From Opitutus sp. GAS368 (GTDB taxonomy: Bacteria > Verrucomicrobiota > Verrucomicrobiia > Opitutales > Opitutaceae): a stretch of DNA of 47,759 bases. Location: the NCBI GenBank assembly GCA_945906965.1, contig CAMDRP010000012.1:1-47759 (forward strand). The letters run 5' to 3'. The notes beneath the pieces are model-generated. The model did not search any database and had not been told where the DNA came from. It saw only the letters and a list, made by a program, of their open reading frames with translations. Position numbers and translations under genes: made by a program. Below, piece after piece: positions 12,284-27,889 of the stretch. The stretch's first letter is position 1. The number at the start of each line of letters is the position of its first letter.

Positions 12284-13455
12284 GCGGCAGGGAGCGTAAA
12301 ACTAAACCGGGCGCCCGCACCCGGCGCACTCTCCACGCGCACTTCTCCGCCGTGCGCTTGCACAACGTGCTTCACAATCGCAAGCCCGAGACCCGTGCCG
12401 CCTTGTTCACGCGAGCGCGCTTTATCCCCGCGAAAAAAGCGCTCGAAAATCCGCGCACACGCATCCGCGGGAATGCCCGGGCCATCATCCTGCACGCAAA
12501 TTTCGATCCGCCGAGTATCCAAGGCCCGCGCGCTAATCACAACCTCTCCTTCGATGCGTCCATACTTGATCGCATTGTCGATGAGATTGGAAAGCACCTG
12601 CCGCAAACGATCAGGATCGGCCTGCACGATCAGCGCGGCATCGACTTTATTTTTAATCGCCACCCCCCGCGCGCTGGCGCGGCCACGCAGATCATCGCCC
12701 GCTTCTTGCACCGCCAGGCGCAGCGAAACAGACTGGAGCGCAAGCCGGATATTACCAGAATCAAGCGTCGAGAGCATTAACAGATCATCGATGAGCAAGG
12801 TCAGTCGATTTGCGTTTTTATCAATAATCTGGAGAAACCGTAGTAACGAATCAGGTTCATCTTTACCCCCGTCGATCAAGGTCTCAGCTGCGCTTTTGAT
12901 CAAAGACAACGGGGTGCGCAGTTCATGGCTCACGTTGGCGACAAATTCCTGCCGCACGGCCTCGAGTTGGCGGAGTTGTGTGAGATCGTGAATCACCAAA
13001 ATGGCGCCGTCGCGCGCGCCCTCGCCATCGCGCAGCGCGAGCGCATTTACTTGGAGAAATTTCGGTGACTCCAGCGTCTCCAGACGTAAGTCGTGGCCTA
13101 AGATCTCTGGCTCGTTTTCCAGCCGAGTCACCAAAGCAGCGACTTCGTGGTGACGGGTCGCTTCCAGAATCGTCCGGCCTACAACCGGAGGCTTGAAATT
13201 GAACAACTCGCCCGCGGCGCGATTGGCGAGGCGGATGCGGCCCGCCGCATCGACGACGATGAGACCTTCGATCATGCGCTCAAAGAGTGCGGCGGTGCGC
13301 TGGGCTTGCTCGCGGAGCTCGTTCTCGCGTTGGGCGCGCTGCTCGGCGAGCTGACCCAAGCGTTCCGCTTCCAAGCGATGGTTACGACCGCGCTCCAACC
13401 ACCAGGCGACGGCAAAGATCGCCGCCAACACGAGGAGAAAAACGGAGGTAAACAT
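12280..13455 (-). CDS. phoR: Sensor histidine kinase PhoR
   Basis: 391-residue membrane sensor kinase for the phosphate response. A single N-terminal membrane helix (SVFLLVLAAIFAVAWWL) is followed by a basic/acidic helical linker and a PAS domain at about 52-160 (IEGLIVVDAAGRIRLANRAA). The dimerisation domain has the phospho-acceptor His177 (NVSHELRTPLSLIKS). The ATPase domain shows NLIDNAIKYG, DDGPGIP and GGTGLGLAIV. One short membrane anchor with no periplasmic sensor domain is typical of PhoR, which senses phosphate through the Pst transporter and PhoU. It lies 48 bases downstream of phoB and is the last gene of the minus-strand Pho cluster. Its stop overlaps that of the sulfatase gene, so there is no room for a separate terminator. 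Confidence 0.93.
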   Translation of the reverse strand: MFTSVFLLVLAAIFAVAWWLERGRNHRLEAERLGQLAEQRAQRENELREQAQRTAALFERMIEGLIVVDAAGRIRLANRAAGELFNFKPPVVGRTILEATRHHEVAALVTRLENEPEILGHDLRLETLESPKFLQVNALALRDGEGARDGAILVIHDLTQLRQLEAVRQEFVANVSHELRTPLSLIKSAAETLIDGGKDEPDSLLRFLQIIDKNANRLTLLIDDLLMLSTLDSGNIRLALQSVSLRLAVQEAGDDLRGRASARGVAIKNKVDAALIVQADPDRLRQVLSNLIDNAIKYGRIEGEVVISARALDTRRIEICVQDDGPGIPADACARIFERFFRGDKARSREQGGTGLGLAIVKHVVQAHGGEVRVESAPGAGARFSFTLPAA

Positions 13456-13503: not shown

Positions 13504-14190
13504 TTATGCCTCCGCGAGGCAACGATAGCCGACGCCACGCACGGTTTCGAGATAACGCGCGATCTCACCGAGTTTCTCACGCAAACGCCGCATGTGGGTA
13601 TCAACGGTGCGACTATCGATCGGATTGTCGTAGCCCCAGACGTCCTGCAGCAGCCGATCGCGAGTCTGCACGCGACCCCGACGACGGATGAGAATTTCGA
13701 GTAATTTAAACTCGGTCGCGGTCAGCACGAGCGGTTCGCCTGCGACCGTAACTTCATGACGACCCGCGTCGAGGATCAGCTCACCCATGCGCAATTCGGC
13801 ACTGGTTTCTTCGCTACTTTGGGCACGCACCAGGAGTTTTTTGATGCGCAAAAGCAATTCGCGAGGACTGAAAGGTTTGGTGACGTAATCATCGGCCCCC
13901 AATTCGAGTCCGAGGACGCGGTCCATCTCCGCGGCTCGCGCCGTGAGCATGATAATCGGAATAGCCGCAGTGTTGGCGTCACGCCGAAGAATTTTGCACA
14001 CCTCTAGGCCGTCCACCTCGGGCAGCATGAGATCGAGCACGATGAGCGCGGGACGCTCATCACGCGCCAGGGCGATCGCTCGGGCGCCATCTTTGGCTAG
14101 AAGCGCGTTATAACCTGCCTGACGCAGCTTAAAACCGAGTACTTCGAGCGCGTCGGGCTCGTCGTCGACGAGCAGAATTTTAGGTTTCAT
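13504..14190 (-). CDS. phoB: Response regulator PhoB
   Basis: 228-residue OmpR/PhoB-type transcription factor. The receiver domain (1-120) has the acidic pocket VDDEPD, phospho-acceptor Asp53 (IVLDLMLPEVDG), Thr83 and Lys105 (TKPFSPREL). A winged-helix DNA-binding domain fills 130-228 (LTATEFKLLEILIRR, DSRTVDTHMRRLREKLG, TVRGVGYRC). The start overlaps the end of phoU by 11 bases, which points to translational coupling. Phosphorylated PhoB would bind direct 11-bp-spaced repeats; candidate sites lie upstream of the porin gene in this cluster. Confidence 0.95.
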   Translation of the reverse strand: MKPKILLVDDEPDALEVLGFKLRQAGYNALLAKDGARAIALARDERPALIVLDLMLPEVDGLEVCKILRRDANTAAIPIIMLTARAAEMDRVLGLELGADDYVTKPFSPRELLLRIKKLLVRAQSSEETSAELRMGELILDAGRHEVTVAGEPLVLTATEFKLLEILIRRRGRVQTRDRLLQDVWGYDNPIDSRTVDTHMRRLREKLGEIARYLETVRGVGYRCLAEA

Positions 14191-14845
14191 TAGCTTTTCC
14201 GGAGGTGTGGCGAATGTCTTTAGCCTCGTATAAATAGACGACTTCTTCGGCGATGTTGGTGGCGTGGTCGGCGATGCGTTCGAGACTTTTGGAGATGACC
14301 ATCAGGTTCAGGCAGCGTGAAATATTGGAAGGACGTTCAACCATGTAGCTGGAGAGTTCGCGGTGCAGTTGGCGGTTGAGATTATCGACATCGCCATCGC
14401 GCGGCACCACCAAGCGCGCTTTCTCGGGGTCCCGGTTAATGAAAGCGGTGATAGCCTCGCGGAGCATTTCAAGGCCCATGGTAGCCATACGGGGAATATC
14501 GACGTAGGGCTTGAGTTGGGGTTCGGCGTTGAGGTCGATCCCGCGGCGGCAAATGGTGACCGCTTCATCGCCGACCCGCTCTAAATTTTGCGAGATTTTC
14601 ATCGCAACCGTGATCAGTCGAAGCTCGGTCGCGAGCGGCGCCTTGGTGAGAAGATGGATGGCGATGTCGTCGATCTCGACCTCAAGTTGGTCGAGGATGT
14701 TATCATCTTCCTGCACTTGGCGGGCGAGGGCGTCGTCACGCTCTACAAGCGCGCGGATGGAGCGGGCCACGGCCGATTCGGCGTGGCTAGCCATCGCAAG
14801 GAGGCTCTCTTTGAGCCGGTTCATTTCTTCGGAGTAGTGCGTCAT
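14180..14845 (-). CDS. phoU: Phosphate signalling protein PhoU
   Basis: 221-residue all-helical cytoplasmic protein with the two three-helix-bundle repeats of PhoU. The paired metal-binding signatures are visible as SQNLERVGDEAVTI and SKSLERIADHATNIAEEVVY. The N-terminus (HYSEEMNRLKESLLAMASHAESAV) is typical. PhoU links the transport state of PstSCAB to PhoR and keeps the kinase off when phosphate is plentiful. It follows pstB by 16 bases and overlaps phoB by 11. Confidence 0.95.
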   Translation of the reverse strand: MTHYSEEMNRLKESLLAMASHAESAVARSIRALVERDDALARQVQEDDNILDQLEVEIDDIAIHLLTKAPLATELRLITVAMKISQNLERVGDEAVTICRRGIDLNAEPQLKPYVDIPRMATMGLEMLREAITAFINRDPEKARLVVPRDGDVDNLNRQLHRELSSYMVERPSNISRCLNLMVISKSLERIADHATNIAEEVVYLYEAKDIRHTSGKANET

Positions 14846-14861: not shown

Positions 14862-15689
<828 letters not shown>

Positions 15690-15714: not shown

Positions 15715-16761
15715 TCACCATTTGTAGCGATTACGCAATTTGTTGCGCAGCAGAATCGAGCTCGTCGCGATTGCTGCCACGATCATTAAAAACACAAAGG
15801 CCGTACCGTATTGCACGCGCTCGGTGTATTCATTTTGCGGAATCTTCGAGCTAACGACGTAGATGTGGTAGGGCAGCGCCATGACGCCCTGAAAGAAAAA
15901 ATCACTGACCGAGGTGAGCCCTTCCCAGGGTAATTTGTCGCGGACGACATAGGCAGCAGTAAACATGATCGGTGCCGTCTCACCGGCGACGCGAGCGATG
16001 CCGAGAATCGACGAAGTAAGAATACCGGGAAGTGCGTAGGGTAGAACGTTCTTTCGAATCGTCTGCCACTTGGTTGCCCCCAAAGCGAGCGAGCCCTCCC
16101 GAAAACCTTTCGGCACAGCCTTGAGCGATTCTTCGGAGGCGGTGATGACCACCGGCAACACCATGAGGGCGAGCGTAAACCAACCGGCAATTAACGAAAC
16201 ATTCCAATCGAGATAGATGACGAAAAGGCCTAGACCAAAGAGGCCGAAGACAATTGATGGCACGCCCGCAAGATTGAGGATCGCCAAACGGATCGCGGTG
16301 ACGACCCGGCCTTGCGTGGCGTACTCACTGAGATATACCGCCGCACTCACTCCGAGGGTTAGGGCAATAAACATGGATCCGACCACCAGCAGCACCGTAC
16401 CGACGATACAGGGGAAAATACCACCCGCTGAGTAGACGTAGCTCTCGCTTTTCACGTTACTGGCATCGGGGTGCTGCGCCTTAAAGGCGCGAAATTCACG
16501 ATCGCCCATCTCTCTTTTTTTCCCCTGATATTCAAAAACGTAGAGCGACTCAGGCGCTTCCGTCAAAAATGCGACGTTGATAAACGGCGCCGTGGTGGTG
16601 AACACCGTCTTGGAGCCTTTAAAGACGATGTTGCCAAAAACCAACGCTCCACAAAGCAAGATCACATAAGTGGCGCTACGGAACAACCAGACGGCCGCGG
16701 CCTCCCAACGGCGCGCGGCCGAGGGCTGGGATTGAAGAATATGACGGTTAAGCGCGCTCAT
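15715..16761 (-). CDS. pstA: Phosphate ABC transporter permease PstA
   Basis: 348-residue inner-membrane permease. The first membrane helix ([18 protein letters not shown]) is followed by a hydrophilic, presumably periplasmic loop of about 60 residues containing [19 protein letters not shown], before the transport core begins at [20 protein letters not shown]. The ATPase-contact loop reads [26 protein letters not shown], a good PstA/PstC EAA motif. The loop is longer than in the Escherichia coli protein. It starts four bases after pstC. Confidence 0.94.
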
Positions 16762-16765
16762 GAGA

Positions 16766-18367
16766 TCAGCCGATGGAGATGCGGTATTTGTTCACGATTT
16801 TCTGCGCGAGAAAGTTAATCGCGAGTGAGAGAAAGAAGAGACCGAGACCGACCACGAAGAGCGCGCGATAGTGAATGCTGCCGCGCACCACTTCACCCAT
16901 CTCCTGCGCGATGATTCCCGTCATGGTGTGCACCGGCTGGGTCACCACCGCAAGACCAGCCGTAAAATCGGGGATGGCGATACGGTTACCAGCGCACAGA
17001 AGCACGACCATCGTTTCGCCGATCACGCGCCCCAGGCCCAAGAGCACCGCGGAAATAATACCCGACAACGAAGCCGGCACCACGATCTTGATGATCGTCT
17101 GGAGACGGGTCGCACCAAGGGCGAATGACGCTTCCTTAAAGGCTTTCGGTACGTTTTGCAGCGCGTCCTCGGCGAGGGTGAAAATCGTGGGCACGGCGAT
17201 GAGTGCGAGCAAACAGCCGGCGGTCAGGATGTTCAACCGCTCGCTGAACGGGAAGCCCGGCACCCAAGCGAGTGCGTCCTGCTGCGATAGCCAGCGCAAG
17301 AGTTGCCCGAGCACCGCGATGCCAAAAAAACCAAGCACGACCGAAGGAATCGCGGAGATAAACTCGATACAGGGTTTGATGAAACGTTGCTCAGCCGCGG
17401 AAGCGATCTGGTTAACGTAGATCGCGGCGCCGACACCCATGGGGACCGCGAGCAGTAGCGCCACCAATGAGACCATCAACGAGCCCATAAAAAGTGGCAC
17501 GATCCCATACCAATCCTGCCAGAAGCTGGCGGTGAGCCACTCACGACCAAACAGAAAAGCGGAGAATGCCTGATACCACGGTACAGCCCGAGTGTAATCC
17601 CAAGTCTCGAGGCTACGCGTCGTGGCGGGGAAGGTCGCAGTAAAATCACTGCTGAGCTGGCGAAAACGCTCGAGGCGGGTCGTCAACTCCGCAGTGGGCA
17701 TCGCCGGGGCGGTAAGCAGCGCGGCATCGAGTTTCTTGATGAACTCAGCGGCGAGTTCTTTGTAGGCAGGAAGGGTGCCCGTGAGCGCTTTCACCTCCAC
17801 GGCAAAATCAACCGTTTCAATTTGCACGGCGGCCGCCTCGGCGATCTTTCCCTCAGCGGTGAGTTGTTGGCGTTCGACGGCCTTATCTTCGGCGACAAGG
17901 AACTTCGTTTTGATGGCGGTGGCCTGCTCAGTGAGTTCGGAGACTAAGCCGCGCAAAGGTTCAACAGAGTCACCGTAGAGCGCGGCGAAATTATCAAAAG
18001 CGACAAGCGACTCATTGGCGGCGGCGGGCGTGAGCTTCTTTTCTAGAGTGGCGTGGCTGAACTGACGCAAGCGCAGATCGGAGAGATAACGAGTAAGCGC
18101 GGTGTGGGCGCTCTCTTGCGTGCGAATATAGTCGACGTATTCGAGCCCAGCTTGGCGATACGTGAGCAAATTCCGGTGATTTTGTCCGAAAAAGCCGAAG
18201 CCCTCCTGAAATAAAAAATAGGTGATCAGCGCGAGGACAAGAACCGAGACAAAGGCATTGCCGCCAAAGAAAATTTTGACGGCGTCATCGAAGGAAAGCC
18301 CGAGCACGCGGACACGTTTCTTGTTAACCAAAAAATCCGAGGCGGGTGCGGGTCGCGGGGAATCCAT
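16766..18367 (-). CDS. pstC: Phosphate ABC transporter permease PstC with a long periplasmic insertion
   Basis: 533-residue permease, far longer than the roughly 320 residues usual for PstC. The first membrane helix is at about 38-56 ([17 protein letters not shown]). A mainly helical, charged segment of about 200 residues follows ([58 protein letters not shown]). The normal permease core starts at about 288 ([21 protein letters not shown]). The EAA loop is [27 protein letters not shown]. Topology places the insertion in the periplasm, where PstS docks, so it may act in PstS handling or sensing (inference). The reading frame is continuous, so this is a genuine insertion and not a fusion artefact. 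Confidence 0.93.
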
Positions 18368-18463: not shown

Positions 18464-19270
18464 TCATGGAACCGAGACGAAGCCGACTTTCTCGGCTATT
18501 TTCTGCCCATCCGGGCTCAATGTGAAAGCAATGAATTTGGCGGCCTCACCGGTGGGTTCACCATTGGTGTAGTAGAACGTTGGGCGGGAATAGGGATAGT
18601 TACCGGCGACAATATCGGCCCGATTCGGTAGCAGTCCATCAATCGATACCACCTTGATGCCAGGGTCATTGATGTAGGCGAGACCGACGTAGCCGATGCC
18701 ACTCGGATTCTTCGCAACTTCGGAGGTGATCTGCTCATTGCCGGCCATTTTTTGCGACGCGGGCGCGTAGTTGCGCTTCTTCATCGCGAGGTCCTTCCAA
18801 TCGGAGTAGGTGCCGGAGGAGGTGTTGCGCGTGTAAATGGAAAACTTACCAGCTTTGCCACCTACGGCAGACCAGTCTGCGACATCACCCGTGAAAATCT
18901 GCTCAACCTGGCGTTTCGTGAGTTGGGTGATGGGATTGTTGGCGTGGACGATGACGGCCATGCCGTCGTAGGCGACCGTGGTGTCCTTGAGGTTCACGCC
19001 TTTAGCCTGACCGGCGGAAATTTCCGTGGGTTTGGCGTGGCGTGACGACATGCCAATCTGGGCGGTGCCGTCGATGATCGCGGCGATACCCGTGGTGGAG
19101 CCTTCGGCGGCAATTTCAAAGGAAACCCCAGGATGGCGCGCTTTGTATTCCTCCGCCAGCGTCGGGACGAGTTTGGCGCCGAGCGTGTCGGAGCCTTTGA
19201 TCACGAGCTTCTGAGCGAAAAGATTCCCGGTCGCAGCAATGAGGGCAAAAAAGGCTAAGGTAATTTTCAT
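18464..19270 (-). CDS. pstS: Phosphate-binding protein PstS, copy next to pstC
   Basis: 268-residue periplasmic phosphate-binding protein with a signal peptide (ITLAFFALIAATGNLFAQ). Ligand-site motifs are visible: KGSDTLGAKL, AEGSTTGIAAI, and RNTSSGTYSDWKDLA for the phosphate-holding Ser/Thr/Arg residues. It belongs to the short (about 270-residue) PstS group. It is closely similar over its full length to the next gene upstream, with the same length and the same motifs, so the pair is a recent duplication. It sits 96 bases upstream of pstC and downstream of a strong terminator. Confidence 0.95.
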   Translation of the reverse strand: MKITLAFFALIAATGNLFAQKLVIKGSDTLGAKLVPTLAEEYKARHPGVSFEIAAEGSTTGIAAIIDGTAQIGMSSRHAKPTEISAGQAKGVNLKDTTVAYDGMAVIVHANNPITQLTKRQVEQIFTGDVADWSAVGGKAGKFSIYTRNTSSGTYSDWKDLAMKKRNYAPASQKMAGNEQITSEVAKNPSGIGYVGLAYINDPGIKVVSIDGLLPNRADIVAGNYPYSRPTFYYTNGEPTGEAAKFIAFTLSPDGQKIAEKVGFVSVP

Positions 19271-19299
19271 GGACTTAGTTTGGGAGAAAAGGCGGAAAG

Positions 19300-19341
19300 A
19301 AAAAAAAGGGCCCGTCCTGACATCTGCCGGGATGGGCCCTT
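19300..19341 (-). terminator. Intrinsic terminator between the two pstS genes
   Basis: On the minus strand the transcript forms a 12-bp stem (AAGGGCCCATCC with GGACGGGCCCTT, one G-U pair) around a 12-base loop and runs into eight consecutive U. It lies 20 bases after the stop of the distal pstS. It should end most transcripts from the porin/pstS promoter and let only read-through, or a separate promoter, feed pstS-pstCAB-phoU-phoBR. Confidence 0.92.
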
Positions 19342-19361
19342 AGGGTTAATTCAATTGGGAC

Positions 19362-20168
19362 TTAGCGGAGGGTGATGAAGCCGACTTTCTCGACGATTTT
19401 TTGGCCTTCGTCGCTCAAGCTAAAATCGATGAACTTGGCCGCTTCGCCAGTGGGCTCACTGTTGGTGTAATAGAACGTCGGACGCGCGTAGGGATACTTC
19501 TTGCTCAAGACGGTCTCTTTGTTGGGCAGCACGCCATCGATCGGGACAATTTTGATACCTTCGGCGTTAATATAAGCTAGGCCGAGGTAGCCGATGCCGT
19601 TCGGGTTCTTCGCCACTTCGGCGGCGATTTGCTCGTTGCCGGCCATTTTTTGCGATGATCCGGCGTAGTCGCGCTTCTTCATCGCCAGATCCTTCCAGTC
19701 GGAGTAAGTGCCAGAAGAGGTGTTGCGCGTGTAGATCGAGATCTTGCCGGCAGGACCACCGACCGCAGACCAGTCCGTGATGTCGCCGGTGAAGATCTGC
19801 TCGACCTGGCGCTTGGTGAGGCCCTTGACCGGGCTCTTGTCGTTCAAGCACACGGCCATGCCATCATAGCACACGATGATCGGCTTCATGGTCACGCCCT
19901 TGGCCTGCGCGGCTGAGACCTCGGTGGTCTTGGCGCGACGGGAGGACATGCCGATCTGGGCGGTACCGTCGATGATCGCAGCTAGACCCGTGGTCGAGCC
20001 TTCAGCGGCGATTTCGAAGGAGACCCCGGGGTGCTTGGCCTTATATTCTTCTGCAAGCGTGGGGACGAGTTTGGCGCCGAGGGTATCGGAGCCTTTGATG
20101 ACGAGCTTCTGCGCCGAGGCCGTCGTGACGAGCGCAAGGGCCGAGAGGAGGAGAATAGTTTTTTTCAT
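19362..20168 (-). CDS. pstS: Phosphate-binding protein PstS, porin-linked copy
   Basis: 268-residue periplasmic phosphate-binding protein with a signal peptide (ILLLSALALVTTASAQ). It has the same binding motifs as its neighbour (KGSDTLGAKL, AEGSTTGLAAI, RNTSSGTYSDWKDLA). It differs mainly around residues 90-115 (PIIVCYDGMAVCLNDKSPV against DTTVAYDGMAVIVHANNPI), where it gains two cysteines. It lies 31 bases downstream of the porin gene and is followed by a strong terminator, so porin and this pstS probably form the abundant first part of the phosphate transcript. Confidence 0.95.
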   Translation of the reverse strand: MKKTILLLSALALVTTASAQKLVIKGSDTLGAKLVPTLAEEYKAKHPGVSFEIAAEGSTTGLAAIIDGTAQIGMSSRRAKTTEVSAAQAKGVTMKPIIVCYDGMAVCLNDKSPVKGLTKRQVEQIFTGDITDWSAVGGPAGKISIYTRNTSSGTYSDWKDLAMKKRDYAGSSQKMAGNEQIAAEVAKNPNGIGYLGLAYINAEGIKIVPIDGVLPNKETVLSKKYPYARPTFYYTNSEPTGEAAKFIDFSLSDEGQKIVEKVGFITLR

Positions 20169-20199: not shown

Positions 20200-21513
20200 T
20201 TAGAATTTAACAACGAGATCGACGAGCAATTCGCTTGAACGGTTCAAATTACCAAGAGAGTACGTCATTTTCTCTTGCAGAACTTTCGTGTCAAAATAGG
20301 TGACGTTAAAGTTAGCGAAATCGGTAATGTTATAAGAGAGGGCGAGCTTGAGTCCTTTCTGGTTGGTCTTGCCGAAGCCCCAGTCAGAATCATTGGCATT
20401 GGGATCGATCGAGGTCAGGCCGACTTCACGATAGTCGAGCTTGGCGCTGTAGTCGCCCTGTACTTTACCCGTGCCGTAGCTGTAGCCCACACCGGCGAGC
20501 CAAGCACCTTCACCGGCGTCAAACAGCGAGCGGTTCAGATTATAGACACGATACGCACGGGTATCGCCCGTAAAGTTGTAAGAACCATCCCAATAGAGCT
20601 TCACCGCCGTACCGGGACCATACAGGTTAGCGAAGTTTAATTCGCCGCTCAGCGTGCCGTAATTTTGGGCGCGGGTCACACCAGAGAAAGCTGCCGAGTT
20701 AAGCAGGCCCGTCATGGTCGATTGACCATAAGCGGTGTAGCCCAGCGCGAAGATGGCACTGCTTAGATTGTCGGGAGCGAACCAATGCGTGTACACGGCT
20801 TGGTTTTCAAACATCCAGGCATCACGACCGGCGGGACCGACTAGCTGCTCGTTATTGTCGAACATGACGTGCTGCATCGCACGCACCTCAAAAGTATCCT
20901 TGCTGCCGATGAAGGCTTTGTAACCTTGGAAAGCACCCTGGGGGTTGATGTCGCCATCCCAGCGCATGTCAGTGGTGTAAAACGGGTTCTTTTGCTTACC
21001 GAGCACGAAAGACCAGTTAAGGTTAGGCTGCCAGCCCACGTAGGCACGCGTCAGAAAAATCCCGTAATCATCGGCTCCGCCGGTAAAGGTCTGGTTGCCG
21101 GAGTCGGAGGCTTGGGCGGTTTCGAGAGCGAAACCCGCGGTCCAGCCTTTTTGCAGAATCATATCGCCGTTGAAACGGAAACGATAGCGCTGACGGGAGG
21201 TCTCGTTGCTGACGGCGGCACCGCCAGTGACGAGTTCGGGCGTCTGACTGTTAGCCTCGTAACGCATGCGCAGGTCGCCGGAGAGTTTGAATTCGACGAG
21301 CGAGGAGCTGAGATTGAGTTTACCGGCAGATGAATTGACGGCGAAATCTTTTTGGAGTTCGACGCGAAGATCTTCAGCTTCTTGGTCGGTAACGACGCCT
21401 TTTTTGACCAGTAGGTCAATCAGAGGACCACTGTCTTGAGCGAGCAGAGCGCCTGTCGAGAGGCATAAGCCGGCGATAATGGCCAAGCATTTTGTAGTGA
21501 AACGGGATTTCAT
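20200..21513 (-). CDS. Outer-membrane porin of the Pho cluster
   Basis: 437-residue predicted beta-barrel porin with a signal peptide (CLAIIAGLCLSTGALLAQ). A short acidic helical segment comes first (LLVKKGVVTDQEAEDLRVEL, about 33-52). Amphipathic strands then run to a C-terminal Phe (LLVDLVVKF), the usual barrel-assembly signal. Strand pairs such as LSGDLRMRYEA, RQRYRFRFNGDM and YVGWQPNLNWSFVLGKQKNPF resemble putative porins of the OprO/OprP-like and PF16930-like groups. Placed first in the operon with pstS, it probably passes phosphate or phosphorylated compounds. Specificity cannot be read from sequence. Candidate PhoB repeats lie upstream. Confidence 0.85.
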   Translation of the reverse strand: MKSRFTTKCLAIIAGLCLSTGALLAQDSGPLIDLLVKKGVVTDQEAEDLRVELQKDFAVNSSAGKLNLSSSLVEFKLSGDLRMRYEANSQTPELVTGGAAVSNETSRQRYRFRFNGDMILQKGWTAGFALETAQASDSGNQTFTGGADDYGIFLTRAYVGWQPNLNWSFVLGKQKNPFYTTDMRWDGDINPQGAFQGYKAFIGSKDTFEVRAMQHVMFDNNEQLVGPAGRDAWMFENQAVYTHWFAPDNLSSAIFALGYTAYGQSTMTGLLNSAAFSGVTRAQNYGTLSGELNFANLYGPGTAVKLYWDGSYNFTGDTRAYRVYNLNRSLFDAGEGAWLAGVGYSYGTGKVQGDYSAKLDYREVGLTSIDPNANDSDWGFGKTNQKGLKLALSYNITDFANFNVTYFDTKVLQEKMTYSLGNLNRSSELLVDLVVKF

Positions 21514-21567
21514 AGTATAGGTTTGATCGATCGGGATCGTGCCGACCTAGGTAAGATAGCGTTCAAT

Positions 21568-21598
21568 TGTTACGAAATCATGTCATTCATGTTACGAT
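21568..21598 (-). promoter_or_regulatory. GTTAC repeat block upstream of the porin gene
   Basis: Two copies of TGTTACG (21568-21574 and 21590-21596) are spaced exactly 22 bases apart, twice the 11-base period of PhoB sites, with TGTCATT between them. The second copy sits in the 10-mer ATGTTACGAT (21589-21598), which recurs upstream of the receptor gene that starts at 27787. The block lies about 55-85 bases before the porin start codon, between that start and the direct repeat at 21643-21664. Confidence 0.45.
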
Positions 21599-21642
21599 CC
21601 CAAAACATAACGGAAAAAAAAAGGCCATTCAGCGAGGTAAGA

Positions 21643-21664
21643 GCGTTACAGCTGCGTTACATCT
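21643..21664 (-). promoter_or_regulatory. Candidate Pho box (11-bp direct repeat)
   Basis: Read on the minus strand this is ATGTAAC-GCAG-CTGTAAC: two 7-bp units separated by four bases, so the period is 11 bp, exactly the geometry of the Escherichia coli Pho box (CTGTCAT-AAAT-CTGTCAC). The sequence match is partial (CTGT-AC). It lies 129 bases before the porin start and 58 bases before the divergent gene at 21723, so it could serve either. Confidence 0.5.
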
Positions 21665-21722: not shown

Positions 21723-22808
21723 ATGATCATCTGCCTCCTACTCGCAACCACGTTGAGTGTAGCGGCTACCGCCGCCCCAAGCACCGCCCTTCCCGCCGCC
21801 CTAGCCCTCGCCCGGGCAGCCGAAAGCCCCGAGTTACGCACCGAACTGGAGGCCGCGGTCGCCCAAACCATCGCGCTGCAAGGGGGACTGGCCGAGGCCG
21901 AAAAAATCGCCGCAGCGCTCCCCCCTTATCAGCATGCCTCCGTCCTGCTCGCGTTAGCCGAGGTCACATCGTTGGTGGAACGTGCTGCAGCTGAAAAATT
22001 CCTCTTGGCGGTGCAAACGGACAAAGCGCTCACCACTGATTGGCACAAAAGCCGGATCGCACGGGGCCTCGCGGTGGCGTATGCCCGGCTCGGGCGCCTC
22101 GATACCGCTGAAGTCTTCGCTCGCGAAGTGCCAGACACCGAGGACCGCGCCTATGCCCTACAAGCTATCGTCGGGCCTCTCTGCCAAGCCGGCGAGGTAG
22201 CCCGAGCCCGAGAGCTAGCGGGCAGCATCGAGGAAAATCGGCGCTACGGCACCTACCGACAGAAAGCTGAGGCTCTCGCTCAGGTTGCCACCGCCTTGCA
22301 TAGTCGCGGAGATAATGAAGGCGCGGCTACACTGCTCGCCCAAGCGGCGCTCCTGCTGCCGAAGAAACCAGGCTGGAGCGACGGCGGCGCCATGCGCGGA
22401 GTCGCCGTGGCGCAGTACGCCTGCGGCGAAACGGCATCCGCGACGGCCCTACTCAACCGAGCCGACGACCTAGCCTCAGCGATTGCCGGTCCCTGGAAGG
22501 TTTCCGAATTCACCCAAATTTCCGCGGCCTGGCGTCGCTGCGGTGAGTCGGCTCGCGCCGATCAGCGGCTCGCTGAAGCCGCGATTTCTCTCACCACGCT
22601 GACTGTCACTGATCGCATTCCTGAGGCCCTCACCCTTGCTCGCGCCCAATTCGCCGCCGGTCAGAAGCTCGCAGCGCGCGAACTCCTCGCCGCTACCCTC
22701 GCCGAAGCCCTGGAACTGGCCAGCCCCGAAGTCGCCCGCGCGCATCATGTGCGCACACTGCTGGCATGGGCTGAGCTTTTTAGCACCGAGCCCCTACCGA
22801 CGGAGTGA
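21723..22808 (+). CDS. Secreted helical-repeat (TPR-like) protein of unknown function
   Basis: 361 residues with a signal peptide (MIICLLLATTLSVAATAA). The remainder is almost wholly Ala/Leu/Arg-rich helices of 30-35-residue spacing (ARGLAVAYARLGRLDTAEVF, AIVGPLCQAGEVARARELA, ALAQVATALHSRGDNEGAAT, MRGVAVAQYACGETASATAL), the pattern of tetratricopeptide-like repeats. I do not recognise a named family. It is divergent from the porin/pst cluster and shares its 209-base promoter region, so phosphate regulation is possible. Repeat proteins of this type usually act as scaffolds in the periplasm or envelope. Confidence 0.7.
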   Translation: MIICLLLATTLSVAATAAPSTALPAALALARAAESPELRTELEAAVAQTIALQGGLAEAEKIAAALPPYQHASVLLALAEVTSLVERAAAEKFLLAVQTDKALTTDWHKSRIARGLAVAYARLGRLDTAEVFAREVPDTEDRAYALQAIVGPLCQAGEVARARELAGSIEENRRYGTYRQKAEALAQVATALHSRGDNEGAATLLAQAALLLPKKPGWSDGGAMRGVAVAQYACGETASATALLNRADDLASAIAGPWKVSEFTQISAAWRRCGESARADQRLAEAAISLTTLTVTDRIPEALTLARAQFAAGQKLAARELLAATLAEALELASPEVARAHHVRTLLAWAELFSTEPLPTE

Positions 22809-23014: not shown

Positions 23015-23042
23015 AAAAAAGCGGCGCCCCTAAGGGCGCCGC
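23015..23042 (-). terminator. Intrinsic terminator after the beta-helix protein gene
   Basis: Perfect 9-bp stem GCGGCGCCC (23021-23029) with GGGCGCCGC (23034-23042) around a four-base loop. On the minus strand it is followed by six U (23015-23020). It lies 35 bases past the stop codon of the minus-strand gene at 23078. The 22809-23014 stretch between the convergent genes otherwise holds nothing I recognise. Confidence 0.92.
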
Positions 23043-23077
23043 CGTATGGATCAAAATCAATTTAACAACAGCTCGGC

Positions 23078-24871
23078 TTAGTTGATCTCGTAAACTTCGA
23101 AGATTACTTCGCCTGCAGCGCCCTTGCCCTTGATCTGGACCGTGTAGCCGCCAGGCGTGAGAGTTTTCACGAGCACCGCGTCTTTGCTAAAAGCAGGTAG
23201 AGCGAAGGCACCAGAGGTGGAGGCGAGGGAAGAGGCCTGCGTGCCGCTCCAGTCATCGTTCGACGCGATCACATTGGTGCCTTGGTAAAGTTCCATGGTG
23301 GGATCTACGAGGGCGCCAGACACGCCGAGGGGCGTGAGGCCAGGACCGACGGCGCGAATTAGCACCGTCTTGGACTGGGTGCCGGTGATGGAGAAGCCGC
23401 CGATGAGCGTGCCGTTGGCGGCGAGCGTAGCGCGAGTGGCGATGTTGAAAATCTTGCTCGTGGAACCACGGACGACGGGCTCATCAGCCACGGTCGCATC
23501 GGCATCGGTCAGGTAACCGAGCGCGGAGATCGCGCTCCAACTTTTAGCCCAGTTGGCGGCCTTAAAGGCGCCGACATAGTCGGTTGCGGTGAAGAAACCG
23601 TCGGCAGGAGGGGTTTTAGCGCCAGACAGAGCAGGGCTGCCGGTGGCGGGACGGGGGTCGAGGAACTTATTGCGGCTACGGCTGATGCCGGTGAGCATCG
23701 GGTCGGTGTTGATGCGATTAGACTGAGCCGTGCCAGTGATATGTTCCACGCTGTAATTAGTGGAGGGAACCGCACCACCAGAAGTAGCGTTGGGGGCAAG
23801 GAAGAGCTGGGTGTTGCCCGTGCCAGCACCGAAGGTGCCGAAGATGCTGTTACCGATAGCGAGGTCGCCGGCCGCGAGGCGCTTGGCGCTATCCTGGGAC
23901 TGAGCGCTCTCGGTCTCGATACGCACAGCGTAATTACGATAGTCATGGACGATCGAATTATAGATTTTACCGCCCGTGTTATCACGGAAGATCAAACCGT
24001 TGCTGTTGGTGTTGCTCGAGCCTGAGCCTGAGCCGATGAGCGTGAGATTGTAGAGTTCTGGAATGGCATAGGGCATGCCGTCCTCTGGGGTGGTACCGCC
24101 GTCCATTTCCATGGCTTGGTTACCTTTGTCGGATGCACCGATGGCAAACCAGAATTGACCTTTGCCGCGGAAGCTCTCGTCCCAGTCGAAGTTGTCATCG
24201 TCGTTGAACGAGCTGATGAGATACTTGGTGTTGACGGTGCCGCCGAACCACTCGTAGCCGTCGTCGTTACCAGCGTAGACGTCGATGTACTCGATGGTCG
24301 TGCCGCGACCAACCGCGCCCAAGGTAAGGCCGTTGAGTTCGACGTTTGCCGCTACGATGGCTCCGCTGTGTTTGATTTGGGCGTAGCGGAGAATGCCGGA
24401 GTTATCGTCATCATCGGTGCCGCCGTAGGTGCCGAGGGGCTCGGTGGTGGGTATACCTTCGACGTTGCCTTGACCGCTGGTGGTGTTGATGCGCGAGCGA
24501 CCGAGGATCACGACGCCACCCCAGAGACCGCGGTCGGATTGGGTGAGGTTGGCGGTCAGCAGATCGGACTCGGCCGTGAAGATGATGGGGCTCGTGGCGG
24601 TGCCTTGAGCGTTAATCTTACCGCCGCGGGCGATGACCAGAGCGGTGGCGTCGACGGGATTGGCTTTGGCCCGGCCCTTGACTACGGTGCCGGCCTCAAT
24701 CGTGAGGGTAGCGCCGCTGGTGACGTAAATCTTGGTGTCGAGGATATACACATTGGACTTGGTCCAAGTGGCGTTAGCGGTGATGTTACTCGTGACGACA
24801 ACATCGGCGGAGAACACGCCGGCGGGAGCGGCGAGTAACGCGATTAGGGAGCTTATCAGGGGACGTTTCAT
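23078..24871 (-). CDS. Secreted beta-helix-like protein, partner of the adjacent TonB receptor
   Basis: 597 residues with a signal peptide (LISSLIALLAAPAGVFSA). Residues about 25-430 have the look of a right-handed beta-helix: NITANATWTKSNVYILDTKI, GATLTIEAGTVVKGRA, DRGLWGGVVILGRSRIN, ELNGLTLGAVGRGTTIEYID, NDDGYEWFGGTVNTKYLISS, FNDDDNFDWDESFRGKGQFW. The many acidic clusters (TDDDDNSG, NDDDNFDWDE) suggest bound calcium. The last ~110 residues form a separate beta domain (VLIRAVGPGLTPLGVSGA, FALPAFSKDAVLVKTL, GGYTVQIKG) found at the C-terminus of many verrucomicrobial secreted proteins. Similar beta-helix proteins occur beside TonB-dependent receptors in several Gram-negative groups, to my knowledge without a settled function. 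It lies 48 bases after the receptor gene, so the two form an operon. Confidence 0.85.
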   Translation of the reverse strand: MKRPLISSLIALLAAPAGVFSADVVVTSNITANATWTKSNVYILDTKIYVTSGATLTIEAGTVVKGRAKANPVDATALVIARGGKINAQGTATSPIIFTAESDLLTANLTQSDRGLWGGVVILGRSRINTTSGQGNVEGIPTTEPLGTYGGTDDDDNSGILRYAQIKHSGAIVAANVELNGLTLGAVGRGTTIEYIDVYAGNDDGYEWFGGTVNTKYLISSFNDDDNFDWDESFRGKGQFWFAIGASDKGNQAMEMDGGTTPEDGMPYAIPELYNLTLIGSGSGSSNTNSNGLIFRDNTGGKIYNSIVHDYRNYAVRIETESAQSQDSAKRLAAGDLAIGNSIFGTFGAGTGNTQLFLAPNATSGGAVPSTNYSVEHITGTAQSNRINTDPMLTGISRSRNKFLDPRPATGSPALSGAKTPPADGFFTATDYVGAFKAANWAKSWSAISALGYLTDADATVADEPVVRGSTSKIFNIATRATLAANGTLIGGFSITGTQSKTVLIRAVGPGLTPLGVSGALVDPTMELYQGTNVIASNDDWSGTQASSLASTSGAFALPAFSKDAVLVKTLTPGGYTVQIKGKGAAGEVIFEVYEIN

Positions 24872-24919: not shown

Positions 24920-27787
24920 TCAGAAGCCGTAGCCGAGGCTGAGCGAATAACTGCGACCGCGCGTGCGCTCGTAACGCGTGTAATCAATGCCGCGGAAGGT
25001 CTGCGTCGCCTCTTCGCTCGAGTTAAGGAGGTTCTTCGCGGAAACACCGACCTTCCAACGCACGCCGAATTTCTGCGACACGATGAAGTCGAGCTCAGTC
25101 GCGGGTTGCTCGTAAATATCGGGCGTGCCGGGCGGGCTCACGAGCGCGAGACGCTCACCGAAAACGTTGTAATAAATGCTAGCCGAGGTGCGGGTGCGCG
25201 GATTTGAGTAACTGAGATCACCGTTAACGAGGTGGTTCGACTGGCCGGCCAGAGGACGCTTCGAGGAGGTGTTGGGCTCGTATAGGCGTGCCACCTTGAG
25301 CTCACTCGCCGAGATATCGACGGAAGATTCCACAAACGTAAGATTGAGCCCAGCAGTGAAGTTTTCCAACGGCGACCAGAGCCCGCCCAATTTCTGGCGC
25401 AATTCAAACTCGGCGCCTAAAACCCGACCTTTTTCGGGATTCTGGAATTGGATTTCACCTTGGTTAATGATCACGCCAGTGGGCGCAAAGATAGCTTTCT
25501 CAATGGGATTCTTCATCTCTTTGAGAAAGGCGCTCACCGCCACGATGCGGCCGGGACCCGTAAACCACTCCCAGCGCAAATCATAATTATCGATCAGCGT
25601 ACGCTTCAAATCAGGGTTACCGATATAGACGAAGTCGCCGACGAACTCGAAGGTTTCATACGGCGCGAGTTCGCGGAAATTCGGCCGAGCGAGCGTGCGG
25701 CCAAAGGCGGCTCGCAAGTTCATCTTGGGCTGCAATTCGTAGACCAGATTCAACGACGGCAGCGTGTCACGGAGATCGAGTATGCCCTTGCGCCGGGTCG
25801 GGTCGCCACTGCTGACGAGAATATCGGTGCTCTCAATACGGGCACCGCCGATGGCGCGGAGCTTCTTGGTCAACGGCACCTCGGCCATGAAGTAGTAACC
25901 ATCAACATCCATCGCGGCGTCGTAGTTATTGCGTGGAGCCGAAGTGTCTTGGAGGAAGATCGTATCGTTGGTGAAACGACCCGTAGTCGAGTTCACGTTG
26001 CCGACAAATGACGGAAGAAAGAATGTCTGGTCGTTGCCGTCGAAACGTCGCCCGAGGGATCGATAGAGATATTGGCGCTCCCGGAAGGTGCGTTCGATGC
26101 GGGACATCGTGAAGCCGGACTTTAACTTAAATTCTTTACCGCCGGCCGTGGTCAGCGGGAGGGTGAAGTCCGCACCAAAATCACGACGCGTCTCCTCGAG
26201 GTCGCGATAGTAACGCGCCGGATTGACGAGGCCGGAGGTCTCCCATTCGTAAAATGTTTGGCCGCCAAGGACGCGGCTGGAGTTATTGAAGAAACGGGTG
26301 TCGGGCTCTTTTTGGGTGTTCGTCGCATTTGCTGCGGACCACTCGACCAAGAAATCGTGCCACGCCGGAAAAACATGTCGGCCGGTGAGTTGACCCGAGC
26401 GCAATGAGCGCTCGGTAAACTTCAAGGTACGCGTCGTGTAGGTCTGGTCGTTATCGAGACCACCGCCCGCGATATAGAGCCCACTTTGGAGCCGGGCAAC
26501 GTCCTCGCTGGTGGTGTTATAAAGACCGTTGAGCGAGATCTCATGGGCCGTACTGGGTTGCCAGGAGATCTTGCCAGTTGCGCCCGCTGCGATCTCTTCG
26601 GCGCTGCGGTTGTCTTCAAGCGAGACCGTAGTGGAAAGCTGGGGACTATTGATGCCCTGACGCTCGTTGCGACCGATTTTACCACCGGTGTAACTGTTGT
26701 AGTCGTGAGCGTAGGTGAGTGCCGCGATAACGCCGAGCTTTTGTTCGCCCAAATCGAAACGATCGCCATAAGTGATGGAGCCTTTGCGGTTCCACGGTGC
26801 TTCGGTCGAGTGTGGCGCCATGATCGGGGAAAAGAGCCGCGACAGCCGGCCGATTTCCGCGTCGGTGGAGAGCCCGCGCGCCGGAATGGTTTTACCTTGA
26901 AGTTCGGCGGGGATCTGCCGCGAGCCGTCGTCTCGGCCTAGCCAGTCTTCGCCTGCGTCGTAGGTCAGAAATTTCTTGCCGGTAGTCTGCGAGTTGAAGG
27001 AGGTGCCGACCGATATCGCCAGCGTCCGGGTGTCAGGCATGGTCTTAGTGCGAATATCAACATTACCACCTGAAAAATTACCGGGACGATCCGGTGTGAA
27101 CGTCTTAGTGGTGACGATGGCGTCGATCAGTTCGGCCGGGAAAAGATCCATCTGCACAGCGCGGCGATCCGGATCGGCACTGGGCACTTCAGCGCCATTA
27201 AGCGAAGTCGAGCTATAGCGTTCCCCGAGGCCGCGGATGTAGACGTATTTGCCGTCGACGACGGAGGCGCCCGTGACGGCTTTCATCGCCTGCGCCGCGT
27301 CGTTGAAACCGAGGCGGCTCATCTGGTCACTGCCGATGGCGTCACTCACCGCGGTCGCCTTCTGGCGCTGCGCCAGCAAGCCGGCGCCGGAGTTGACCAC
27401 CACGGCGGCAGAGGTGGTAAAGGCGTCCATCTTGATCACGCTATCGGCCTGAGTCAGCGCGGGATTGAGCGCCAAATCGAGGCGCTCGTTGCCGTCTGCT
27501 TTGACCTGAACGTCCGTGATTTTTAACGGATCGAAGCCGGACTTGGCCAAAGTGAGTTCGTGCGCGCCGGCTGGCACTCGGTCCAAGCGGAAAAGACCAT
27601 TAAGATCCGTTTGCGTAGACAGTCCTGACGCGCTGACCGCCACACCCATGATACCGACGCCGTTGGCCGTACTGACCACTCGACCAGAGAGCGTACCCAA
27701 AATCGAATCACTTTGGGCCCAAACCGGTACGACCATACTTAAAAGTGTGACATAAATGAGCGCACGCAGCGCCGTGTATGAGATCAT
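24920..27787 (-). CDS. TonB-dependent receptor with N-terminal carboxypeptidase-regulatory-like domain
   Basis: 955-residue outer-membrane receptor. The signal peptide is ALRALIYVTLLSMVVPVWAQ (ends about 25). A carboxypeptidase-D regulatory-like domain fills about 30-112 (GRVVSTANGVGIMGVAVSAS, TDLNGLFRLDRVPAGAHEL). The plug is about 135-260 (SDQMSRLGFNDAAQAMKAVT, YVYIRGLGERYSSTSLNGAE, FSGGNVDIRTK), followed by a TonB-dependent receptor barrel (GRTLARPNFRELAPYETFEF, NYDLRWEWF) with terminal Phe (SLSLGYGF). It is unrelated in layout to the two receptors at the left end. It is transcribed first, followed by the beta-helix protein. Its promoter region shares the ATCGTAACAT motif (minus strand) with the porin/pst promoter. 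Confidence 0.93.
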   Translation of the reverse strand: MISYTALRALIYVTLLSMVVPVWAQSDSILGTLSGRVVSTANGVGIMGVAVSASGLSTQTDLNGLFRLDRVPAGAHELTLAKSGFDPLKITDVQVKADGNERLDLALNPALTQADSVIKMDAFTTSAAVVVNSGAGLLAQRQKATAVSDAIGSDQMSRLGFNDAAQAMKAVTGASVVDGKYVYIRGLGERYSSTSLNGAEVPSADPDRRAVQMDLFPAELIDAIVTTKTFTPDRPGNFSGGNVDIRTKTMPDTRTLAISVGTSFNSQTTGKKFLTYDAGEDWLGRDDGSRQIPAELQGKTIPARGLSTDAEIGRLSRLFSPIMAPHSTEAPWNRKGSITYGDRFDLGEQKLGVIAALTYAHDYNSYTGGKIGRNERQGINSPQLSTTVSLEDNRSAEEIAAGATGKISWQPSTAHEISLNGLYNTTSEDVARLQSGLYIAGGGLDNDQTYTTRTLKFTERSLRSGQLTGRHVFPAWHDFLVEWSAANATNTQKEPDTRFFNNSSRVLGGQTFYEWETSGLVNPARYYRDLEETRRDFGADFTLPLTTAGGKEFKLKSGFTMSRIERTFRERQYLYRSLGRRFDGNDQTFFLPSFVGNVNSTTGRFTNDTIFLQDTSAPRNNYDAAMDVDGYYFMAEVPLTKKLRAIGGARIESTDILVSSGDPTRRKGILDLRDTLPSLNLVYELQPKMNLRAAFGRTLARPNFRELAPYETFEFVGDFVYIGNPDLKRTLIDNYDLRWEWFTGPGRIVAVSAFLKEMKNPIEKAIFAPTGVIINQGEIQFQNPEKGRVLGAEFELRQKLGGLWSPLENFTAGLNLTFVESSVDISASELKVARLYEPNTSSKRPLAGQSNHLVNGDLSYSNPRTRTSASIYYNVFGERLALVSPPGTPDIYEQPATELDFIVSQKFGVRWKVGVSAKNLLNSSEEATQTFRGIDYTRYERTRGRSYSLSLGYGF

Positions 27788-27854
27788 GCTTGCAACGTGG
27801 CAGACGCACGAACCGGTCCCGCAACGCTAAAGCTGCGCCGTCACGGAAAGTTGA

Positions 27855-27889
27855 CGTTACAGACACATAACCGTAACAAATGTTACGAT
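27855..27889 (-). promoter_or_regulatory. GTTAC motif cluster upstream of the receptor gene
   Basis: CGTTACA (27855-27861), then the palindrome CGTAACA-AA-TGTTACG (27872-27887), which is part of the 10-mer ATGTTACGAT (27880-27889). The same 10-mer occurs at 21589-21598 upstream of the porin gene, and CGTTACA occurs twice in the candidate Pho box at 21643-21664. The cluster lies 68-102 bases before the receptor start codon, a normal activator position. The rest of 27788-28286 shows no gene, and I found no clear asnS promoter there. Confidence 0.42.

Follow-up and report, generated by a model that had tools for sequence, protein, structure and literature searches.

Gene pair at the locus

The window analysed here is a stretch of 47,759 nucleotides of Opitutus sp. 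GAS368 (Verrucomicrobiota; assembly GCA_945906965.1, contig CAMDRP010000012.1, positions 1 to 47,759). Its subject is a pair of reverse-strand genes, encoding a TonB-dependent receptor (TBDR) and a beta-helix protein (BHX), which lies beside a cluster of porin, pst and pho genes. The pair and the features that bear on its expression are as follows.

24920 to 27787, reverse strand: TBDR, 955 residues; signal peptide (by reading), then CarboxypepD_reg, Plug and TonB beta-barrel domains (Pfam)
23078 to 24871, reverse strand: BHX, 597 residues; signal peptide without a lipobox (by reading), beta-helix at about residues 20-455 and C-terminal beta-sandwich at about 470-597 (AlphaFold2, fold search, conservation)
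23020 to 23043, reverse strand: terminator-like hairpin 3' of BHX, 10 pairs of which 9 are G-C, with a T-run
27837 to 27888, reverse strand: ladder of GTNNC-type half-sites at 0, 9, 20, 31 and 42 in the TBDR promoter, resembling Pho boxes
21567 to 21661, reverse strand: repeats resembling Pho boxes ahead of the porin, two copies of CGTAACA at a spacing of 22 bases and two of TGTAACG at a spacing of 11

The TBDR gene comes first and is separated from BHX by 48 bases on the same strand, an arrangement in which the two genes likely form one operon. The operon is graded no higher because terminator-like sites as a class were no commoner in the region than in shuffles (4 against 5.2). The first-pass annotation, made from the letters alone, had described a two-gene operon beside a Pho locus; the reading frames, their order and the Pho neighbourhood were confirmed by Pfam, NCBIfam and the 48-base gap, with only the operon itself left at likely. 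The TBDR scored 244.3 bits against TIGR01782 (TonB-Xanth-Caul receptors), under the curated NCBIfam cut-off of 310, and BHX had no Pfam or NCBIfam match at an E value of 0.001. Searches of Protein Data Bank sequences returned no relatives of BHX (E up to 10) or of the TBDR (E up to 0.001).

Conservation of the pair and its linkage to Pho genes

TBDR homologues were found at an E value of 1e-30 in 29 of 100 genomes of the family, the source genome included; scoring was limited to eight first-look candidates in each genome, and an absence in this search is therefore not firm. BHX lay directly after the TBDR gene, on the same strand, in all 29. The pair adjoins pst in seven genomes from four genera (G000, G062, G054, G090, G020, G064 and G055). 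It is far from pst in G048 and G013, each a single contig, and in the two-contig genome G046; several other genomes have contigs that stop too soon for the distance to be judged.

A wider scan of named genomes covered the best 80 of at least 598 BHX loci. Their titles included Bacteroidetes, Ignavibacteria, Latescibacterota, Zixibacteriota, Gemmatimonadales, Acidobacteria and Verrucomicrobia, among others, and the nearest named records were Opitutae/Opitutaceae metagenome-assembled genomes. A TBDR of the window family lay within 3 kb of BHX in 58 of the 80 loci, on the same strand in 56. By tblastn, pst or phoU genes were present in 11 loci (two of them, L121 and L134, Opitutaceae by title) and a PhoB-like regulator in 21, giving a union of 27. 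A PhoB model was the best match of all 13 regulators scanned from the 21 loci, none of which scored above the curated cut-off, and two of five PstS candidates scanned passed the TIGR02136 cut-off, with three below it. Linkage to Pho genes thus recurs across phyla with differing gene orders, and the co-occurrence near pst or phoBR for which the first-pass annotation had advised searching is borne out by these 27 loci from many phyla.

Of the 21 plasmid records that matched BHX, five were opened, and the plasmid proteins shared 28-39% identity with the window proteins. The alphaproteobacterial plasmids, of Sphingomonas and Indioceanicola, carry the order BHX-TBDR-gspC-D-E-F (the first gsp gene annotated as 'protein N'), with BHX identities to the window protein of 36.8% over 242 residues and 33.1% over 350, respectively. 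On a marine Alteromonas plasmid the order is phoB-phoR-phosphate-binding protein-2OG oxygenase-BHX-TBDR-DUF3450-ExbB-ExbB-ExbD-TonB; a Pseudoalteromonas plasmid has Alteromonas-like energising genes upstream of the pair, and a Marinobacter plasmid copy of BHX has no TBDR beside it. As a separate observation, the pairs of Pseudoalteromonas (L202) and Alteromonas (L204) each have their own ExbB-ExbB-ExbD-TonB set, and the length of their BHX proteins would accommodate two or three beta-helix units, judging from separate BLAST segments.

Downstream of the TBDR, at a distance of about 2-3 kb, the Pseudoalteromonas plasmid also has fhuF and a siderophore receptor gene, and one clade of the family has the pair among non-Pho genes. 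Both would fit a pair that serves another nutrient, a metal or a glycan, and is a mere passenger of the Pho locus. We consider this improbable, based on the recurrence of Pho linkage in differing gene orders, the persistence of 11-bp promoter repeats in the very clade that has the pair among non-Pho genes, and the report that three TonB-dependent transporters (TBDTs) of Flavobacterium johnsoniae were induced by depletion of inorganic phosphate (Pi) only, and not of N or Fe (PMC8115612). Pairs consistently located near iron systems, named beforehand as a result that would speak against a phosphate role, were not seen; the Pseudoalteromonas pair was the one with iron genes 2-3 kb downstream.

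Promoter repeats

In the window TBDR promoter, the first half-site of the ladder is 99 bases before the start codon and the half-site at 31 reads GTCAA. The first-pass annotation had quoted two motifs as common to this promoter and that of the porin/pstS genes. Of these, ATGTTACGAT is indeed rare, with exactly two sites in the window, one ahead of the porin and the other ahead of the TBDR (0.05 expected; two reached in 2 of 100 shuffles). CGTTACA was not significant in the window (6 against 3.1 expected, a count reached by 7 of 100 shuffles) and was rejected as a Pho motif on its own, which leaves the quoted motifs weak in one genome. The strict repeat GTNACN6GTNAC has one window site, at the porin, as do 36 of 100 shuffles; at 0.45 expected sites per window it is too unspecific, and therefore unsuitable, for mapping the whole regulon. 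A 16-base inverted repeat, CGTAACAAATGTTACG, was rejected as a regulon marker, the genome holding one exact site, here.

The window ladder appears convincing solely through comparison with relatives. Their pst-porin promoters have GTNAC half-sites 11 and 22 bases apart, and their TBDR promoters, read by eye, form ladders: one clade has half-sites at 0, 9, 20, 31 and 42, and five promoters (L045-L048 and L051) have them at 0, 11, 31 and 42. For these five, the pair and pst are on different contigs or, in G048, about 480 kb apart, yet the repeats are present. GTNAC pairs at a spacing of 11 numbered 29 in 26 TBDR upstream regions (none at 10, one at 12) and 24 in 19 porin upstream regions, compared with 4 in 146 controls. 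At least one strict GTNACN6GTNAC was found in 16 of the 26 TBDR, 10 of the 19 pst-porin and 3 of the 146 control regions (Fisher p 3e-13 for the TBDR and 7e-9 for the porin, values that overstate the certainty as the genomes are related and the controls derive from naive ORF calls). This count left out the near-duplicate genome G062, two contig-cut TBDRs (L039 and L049) and repeat copies of loci; the 19 porin regions were those with a matched porin N-terminus, and control regions sharing 30-base words with TBDR upstream regions were removed.

A 52-base profile built from nine other genomes gave the window TBDR promoter 40.3 bits, with the next site in the window at 2.0 and a background mean of -59.7 (sd 13.7). 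The nine promoters were picked by eye for one spacing pattern, the window and G062 being excluded and G018, which has a variant spacing, unused. In all ten promoters, those nine and the window's, the ladder site is 98-102 bases upstream of the assigned start. Outside the family, 11 was the most enriched spacing of exact 5-mer repeats, found in 21 of 50 pair upstream regions against 59 of 274 controls (p=0.0026, which is modest as 18 spacings were tried; L120, L121, L134 and L144 were left out).

The 11-bp direct repeats common with pst that characterise Pho-regulon promoters are therefore present, in degenerate form in the window TBDR promoter itself. The comparison across relatives provides what we regard as strong promoter evidence where the single genome is thin, and control of the pair by PhoB is very probable.

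Same-layout pairs in other bacteria

A phosphate link is already in print for pairs of the same layout. ElpS (CC_0170) of Caulobacter crescentus is surface-exposed, being accessible to proteinase K, and is made under phosphate starvation from a locus in which its gene lies with the TBDR gene CC_0171 and gsp genes of the type II secretion system (T2SS) (PMC2996285). The same source describes a rise in extracellular alkaline phosphatase activity upon ElpS overexpression, for which an activator role was proposed, and passage of ElpS across the outer membrane by a T2SS-independent route. Pst, the T2SS and TonB receptors are included in the Caulobacter PhoB regulon (PMC11208175). YjbI, a Caulobacter surface protein with a quadrilateral beta-helix that affects TBDR expression (PMC12864828), was set aside.

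The resemblance to the window pair lies in a TBDR beside a surface protein with no known domain that, for ElpS, is made in phosphate starvation, and in the homology of the window BHX to the Sphingomonas and Indioceanicola proteins of BHX-TBDR-gsp layout. ElpS is a lipoprotein, whereas the window BHX lacks a lipobox and carries a beta-sandwich at its C-terminus; the likeness to ElpS is one of layout. The window pair also differs in adjoining pst/pho genes and in having the TBDR first.

In F. johnsoniae, Fjoh_0545 (a TBDT) and Fjoh_0546 (lipoprotein FII, IPR011050) belong to the phoBR operon of the locus PUSIV, and Pi depletion raised their expression, with FC values of 8.02 and 9.91, respectively (Table 1, taken as log2; PMC8115612). 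Fjoh_0545 is among the Pi-induced TBDTs of that paper's table, and relatives of the same layout rank among the most strongly phosphate-induced genes of this bacterium. The paper also gives FI, FII and FIII 31-36% identity over 50-54% to the Caulobacter lipoprotein and states that plant-associated Bacteroidetes lack PstSABC. PUSIV is like the window locus in having a TBDR followed by an IPR011050 protein beside phoBR, both strongly induced by Pi depletion; it differs in that FII is a lipoprotein, and Fjoh_0546 is likened to BHX by layout and annotation, not by direct sequence.

The phosphate responsiveness proposed in the first-pass annotation is, then, well supported, because conserved Pho-box-like repeats, linkage to pst or PhoB-like genes across phyla and the induction reported for pairs of the same layout (PMC8115612, PMC2996285) point the same way. 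Its remark that no settled function is known also stands: neither a description of this pair type in Verrucomicrobia nor a proven function for it was found in the literature searched, with a limited library and set of terms.

Structure models and conserved residues

The AlphaFold2 model of the TBDR (mean pLDDT 85.7) has an ordinary TonB-transporter fold, with FecA matched at Z 36.8 and BtuB1-BtuG1 third at Z 35.1. No rows labelled SusC occurred among the 50 TBDR fold matches listed, which proves nothing. BtuB-BtuG of Bacteroides resembles the window pair as a TBDR with a surface lipoprotein; BtuG, a beta-propeller for vitamin B12, is unlike BHX in fold, and the regulation differs. SusCD and the Pi-induced PusCD (PMC8115612) are likewise a TBDR with a surface partner, and they differ in that the window partner is a beta-helix without a SusD-family match in Pfam; there was no SusD model among its 43 relatives either.

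The BHX model, built on 43 aligned sequences, had a mean pLDDT of 87.8. The model and a fold search both make the first ~435 residues a right-handed beta-helix. IPR011050, the annotation of Fjoh_0546, denotes the pectin-lyase fold. The best fold match was an alginate epimerase/lyase, 8jaz (Z 22.8 over 281 residues, 3.7 A), and further matches included phage tailspikes and PL6, PL9 and GH28 enzymes. Identities were 4-15% among the 50 matches listed, and non-enzymes, namely an adenovirus cementing protein and a streptococcal adhesin, were in the same list. This list establishes the fold and says nothing of activity.

In the alignment of the 43 sequences D203, D204, E207, D225 and D229 were invariant and D226, D231, E255 and D257 nearly so. 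These acidic residues, about one helix turn apart, suggest a metal or ligand site. BHX and the GH28 and PL beta-helix enzymes have the right-handed fold in common; the conservation of the acidic residues is that among the 43 BHX sequences.

Together, the conserved acidic cluster, the polysaccharide-active enzymes among the closest folds listed and the likening of FI/FII to polygalacturonase by Lidbury et al. (PMC8115612) are what would be expected if BHX were an enzyme or helper that releases phosphate extracellularly (a hydrolase, a lyase or, as proposed for ElpS, a protein that activates extracellular phosphatase). The TBDR would then import what is released or have another role. We regard this as unlikely. 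The non-enzymes in the fold list and the low identities argue against it, as does the report that purified or immunoprecipitated ElpS was without phosphatase activity and that elpS deletion left activity unchanged (PMC2996285).

Probable surface delivery of BHX

The C-terminal ~130 residues of BHX form a separate beta-sandwich in the model, whose nearest solved structures are pre-peptidase C-terminal, collagen-binding and GOLD domains (best match 5sv5, probability 1.00, E 1.7e-3); no Pfam family matched this domain in BHX. Searching the source genome with the BHX alignment gave 28 matches, and the 27 besides BHX itself were confined to model positions 431-588. The domain (window 23078-23494, reverse strand, in BHX) ends 12 other open reading frames (ORFs) of this genome (L205-L217), recovered from 13 stretches and 614-1959 residues long, with 1-3 residues beyond the domain in 11 and 24 in one, and it occurs as tandem pairs in 11 of the 12. 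Judged by its position, it may be a lineage-specific surface, sorting or anchoring module.

Many BHX relatives carry known surface-delivery signals: the type IX sorting tail PF18962 was found in 11 of the 43 aligned sequences and CHU_C in one (Pfam), and a regular expression flagged lipoboxes in 13, of which at least two were doubtful, with several obvious ones missed. The window BHX has neither a lipobox (by translation and regular expression) nor a type IX tail. The first-pass annotation had left the partner as surface or periplasmic; because so many relatives have such signals, and as ElpS is proteinase K-accessible (PMC2996285), a surface location is very likely and a periplasmic one less so.

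An alternative explanation of this delivery is that the TBDR exports BHX, acting as its outer-membrane port to the surface, much as PopC secretion in Myxococcus depends on Oar (PMC6434023). The absence of both signals from the window BHX, the T2SS-independent passage of ElpS and the co-occurrence of the two genes in 29 of 29 family genomes with a TBDR match would agree with this. Relatives with type IX tails or lipoboxes, however, have a route of their own and many keep the TBDR, the C-terminal domain of BHX ends other proteins of the same genome, suggesting a general route, and deletion of cc0171 did not end ElpS production, its localisation not being stated in that source (PMC2996285). We consider export by the TBDR highly improbable.

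Proposed role of the pair

The best explanation overall, to which we assign a probability of roughly two in three, is that PhoB activates the pair as a two-gene operon that scavenges phosphorus at the outer membrane. When phosphate is limiting, PhoB would bind the ladder of 11-bp repeats and activate the TBDR and BHX genes together with the pst operon. Once exported, BHX would bind a phosphorus-containing ligand at the cell surface with its beta-helix, which bears the conserved acidic residues; the ligand may be an anionic polymer, bound via metal ions. BHX would cooperate with the TBDR in much the manner of SusD or BtuG and their transporters; the TBDR would import the ligand with TonB energy, and phosphate would be freed in the periplasm and taken up by Pst. 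Regulation and pairing are the well-supported parts of this scheme, and joint action of the two proteins is in our view highly likely. PhoB binding, complex formation, the ligand and its import are inferred, and the import of a phosphorus-containing ligand is somewhat favoured. Capture or processing of an organic or bound phosphorus source, as the first-pass annotation had it, is plausible.

Several observations weigh against this scheme. The strict 11-bp pair is absent from the window TBDR promoter, which has a degenerate ladder only, and the argument for phosphate-dependent expression in the organism itself comes from promoter repeats only. The promoter controls were naive ORF calls that may include coding DNA, and the genomes are related and their counts not independent. 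Outside the family, the spacing test with 6-mers was weaker (p=0.038 at 11 and 0.022 at 22) and the strict GTNAC pair occurred in 4 of 53 pair upstream regions, four of the candidates being own-family loci, against 3 of 289 controls; given this scarcity, other phyla would use a different half-site. Among the 80 BHX loci, 22 had no TBDR of the window family within 3 kb; in 14 of these the flank on one side is shorter than 3 kb, and eight have room on both sides (L167, L173, L175, L178, L182, L184, L186 and L188), L184 having only a weak match. Within the linkage counts of 11, 21 and 27 of 80, the pst call at L122 is one partial PstC match. For a random locus, the linkage that we would estimate is far below 1% with pst and a few per cent with a regulator of OmpR type. 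No phosphatase or phosphodiesterase was among the neighbour families listed, the scope of which is given below. Lastly, cc0171 is reported as constitutive, ElpS production continues after its deletion and no transport phenotype is reported for it (PMC2996285).

Five of the eight loci with room on both sides (L167, L178, L182, L186 and L188) have Bacteroidales-type BHX proteins with a cysteine ending the signal peptide (by reading) and ample flanks. They are a possible orphan branch like Flavobacterium FIII.

On balance, this is a real outer-membrane gene pair that computation links strongly to phosphate control, of a known kind that probably represents a widespread, little-understood form of phosphorus scavenging. 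The recurrence of the pair from Opitutaceae-like genomes to Bacteroidota, Zixibacteria, Latescibacterota and a marine Alteromonas plasmid suggests a general role, and the recurrent pairing and linkage point to well-behaved laboratory hosts in which the ligand could be sought. More tentatively, we speculate that such pairs are a phylum-spanning class of outer-membrane phosphorus transporter, in which a surface beta-helix replaces SusD or BtuG as the capture lid and large phosphorus-bearing polymers that porins cannot pass are imported. The lid might then, just as tentatively, be delivered by each lineage's own route, be it a lipid anchor, a type IX tail or the C-terminal domain of the window protein. 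If phosphorus polymers are imported in this manner, a step would be added to the phosphorus cycle that is missing from porin-and-phosphatase models.

Neighbouring genes

Candidate neighbours of the pair numbered 214 after already recognised Pho genes had been removed, and 85 of them were scanned. The families considered were the 25 listed of 146 in Pfam and the 25 listed of 131 in NCBIfam, so that families matched by two neighbours or fewer may be unlisted. A dedicated phosphatase and an iron system were each rejected as suggestions of the neighbourhood, the former on the listed matches in both databases and the latter on those in Pfam. The phosphate-related matches listed were polyphosphate kinase and the PHO4 transporter (2 of 85 each). 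The models OlsF, GlsA and GlsB, for phosphorus-free lipids, were also listed at 2 of 85 each, perhaps for the same two proteins, and peptidase M28, MotA_ExbB and DUF4301 (3 each) have no known link. The neighbour genes do not name the substrate. In two Latescibacterota a polyphosphate kinase gene lies beside the pair and pst (L124:4309-6708 and L127:4188-6701).

Adjoining porin-pst-pho cluster

The cluster next to the pair begins with the porin gene and contains the following genes, all on the reverse strand.

20200 to 21513, reverse strand: porin (Porin_5, Pfam), first gene of the pst cluster
19362 to 20168, reverse strand: PstS phosphate-binding protein 1 (TIGR02136, 231.9 bits; cut-off 206.6)
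18464 to 19270, reverse strand: PstS phosphate-binding protein 2 (TIGR02136, 228.8 bits; cut-off 206.6)
16766 to 18367, reverse strand: PstC-type permease (BPD_transp_1, Pfam), the name taken from its place in the operon
15715 to 16761, reverse strand: PstA permease (TIGR00974, 256.9 bits; cut-off 193.45)
14862 to 15689, reverse strand: PstB ATPase (TIGR00972, 409.1 bits; cut-off 343.2)
14180 to 14845, reverse strand: PhoU (TIGR02135, 195 bits; cut-off 130.25)
13504 to 14190, reverse strand: PhoB-like response regulator (best model TIGR02154, PhoB, 247.6 bits; below the cut-off of 296.2)
12280 to 13455, reverse strand: PhoR/PnpS-like histidine kinase (best model NF046044, PnpS, 352 bits; cut-off 400)

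For this kinase the PhoR model TIGR02966 ranked third in NCBIfam, at 282.2 bits (cut-off 334.2). The two PstS genes are in tandem (18464-20168, reverse strand), the second matching the first at 74% identity, and G018 and G062 likewise have two adjacent copies. Between the porin and BHX, on the opposite strand, is an ORF of 361 residues (21723-22808, forward strand) with no Pfam match; in three related genomes a counterpart at 46-54% identity is close to either the pair or the porin.

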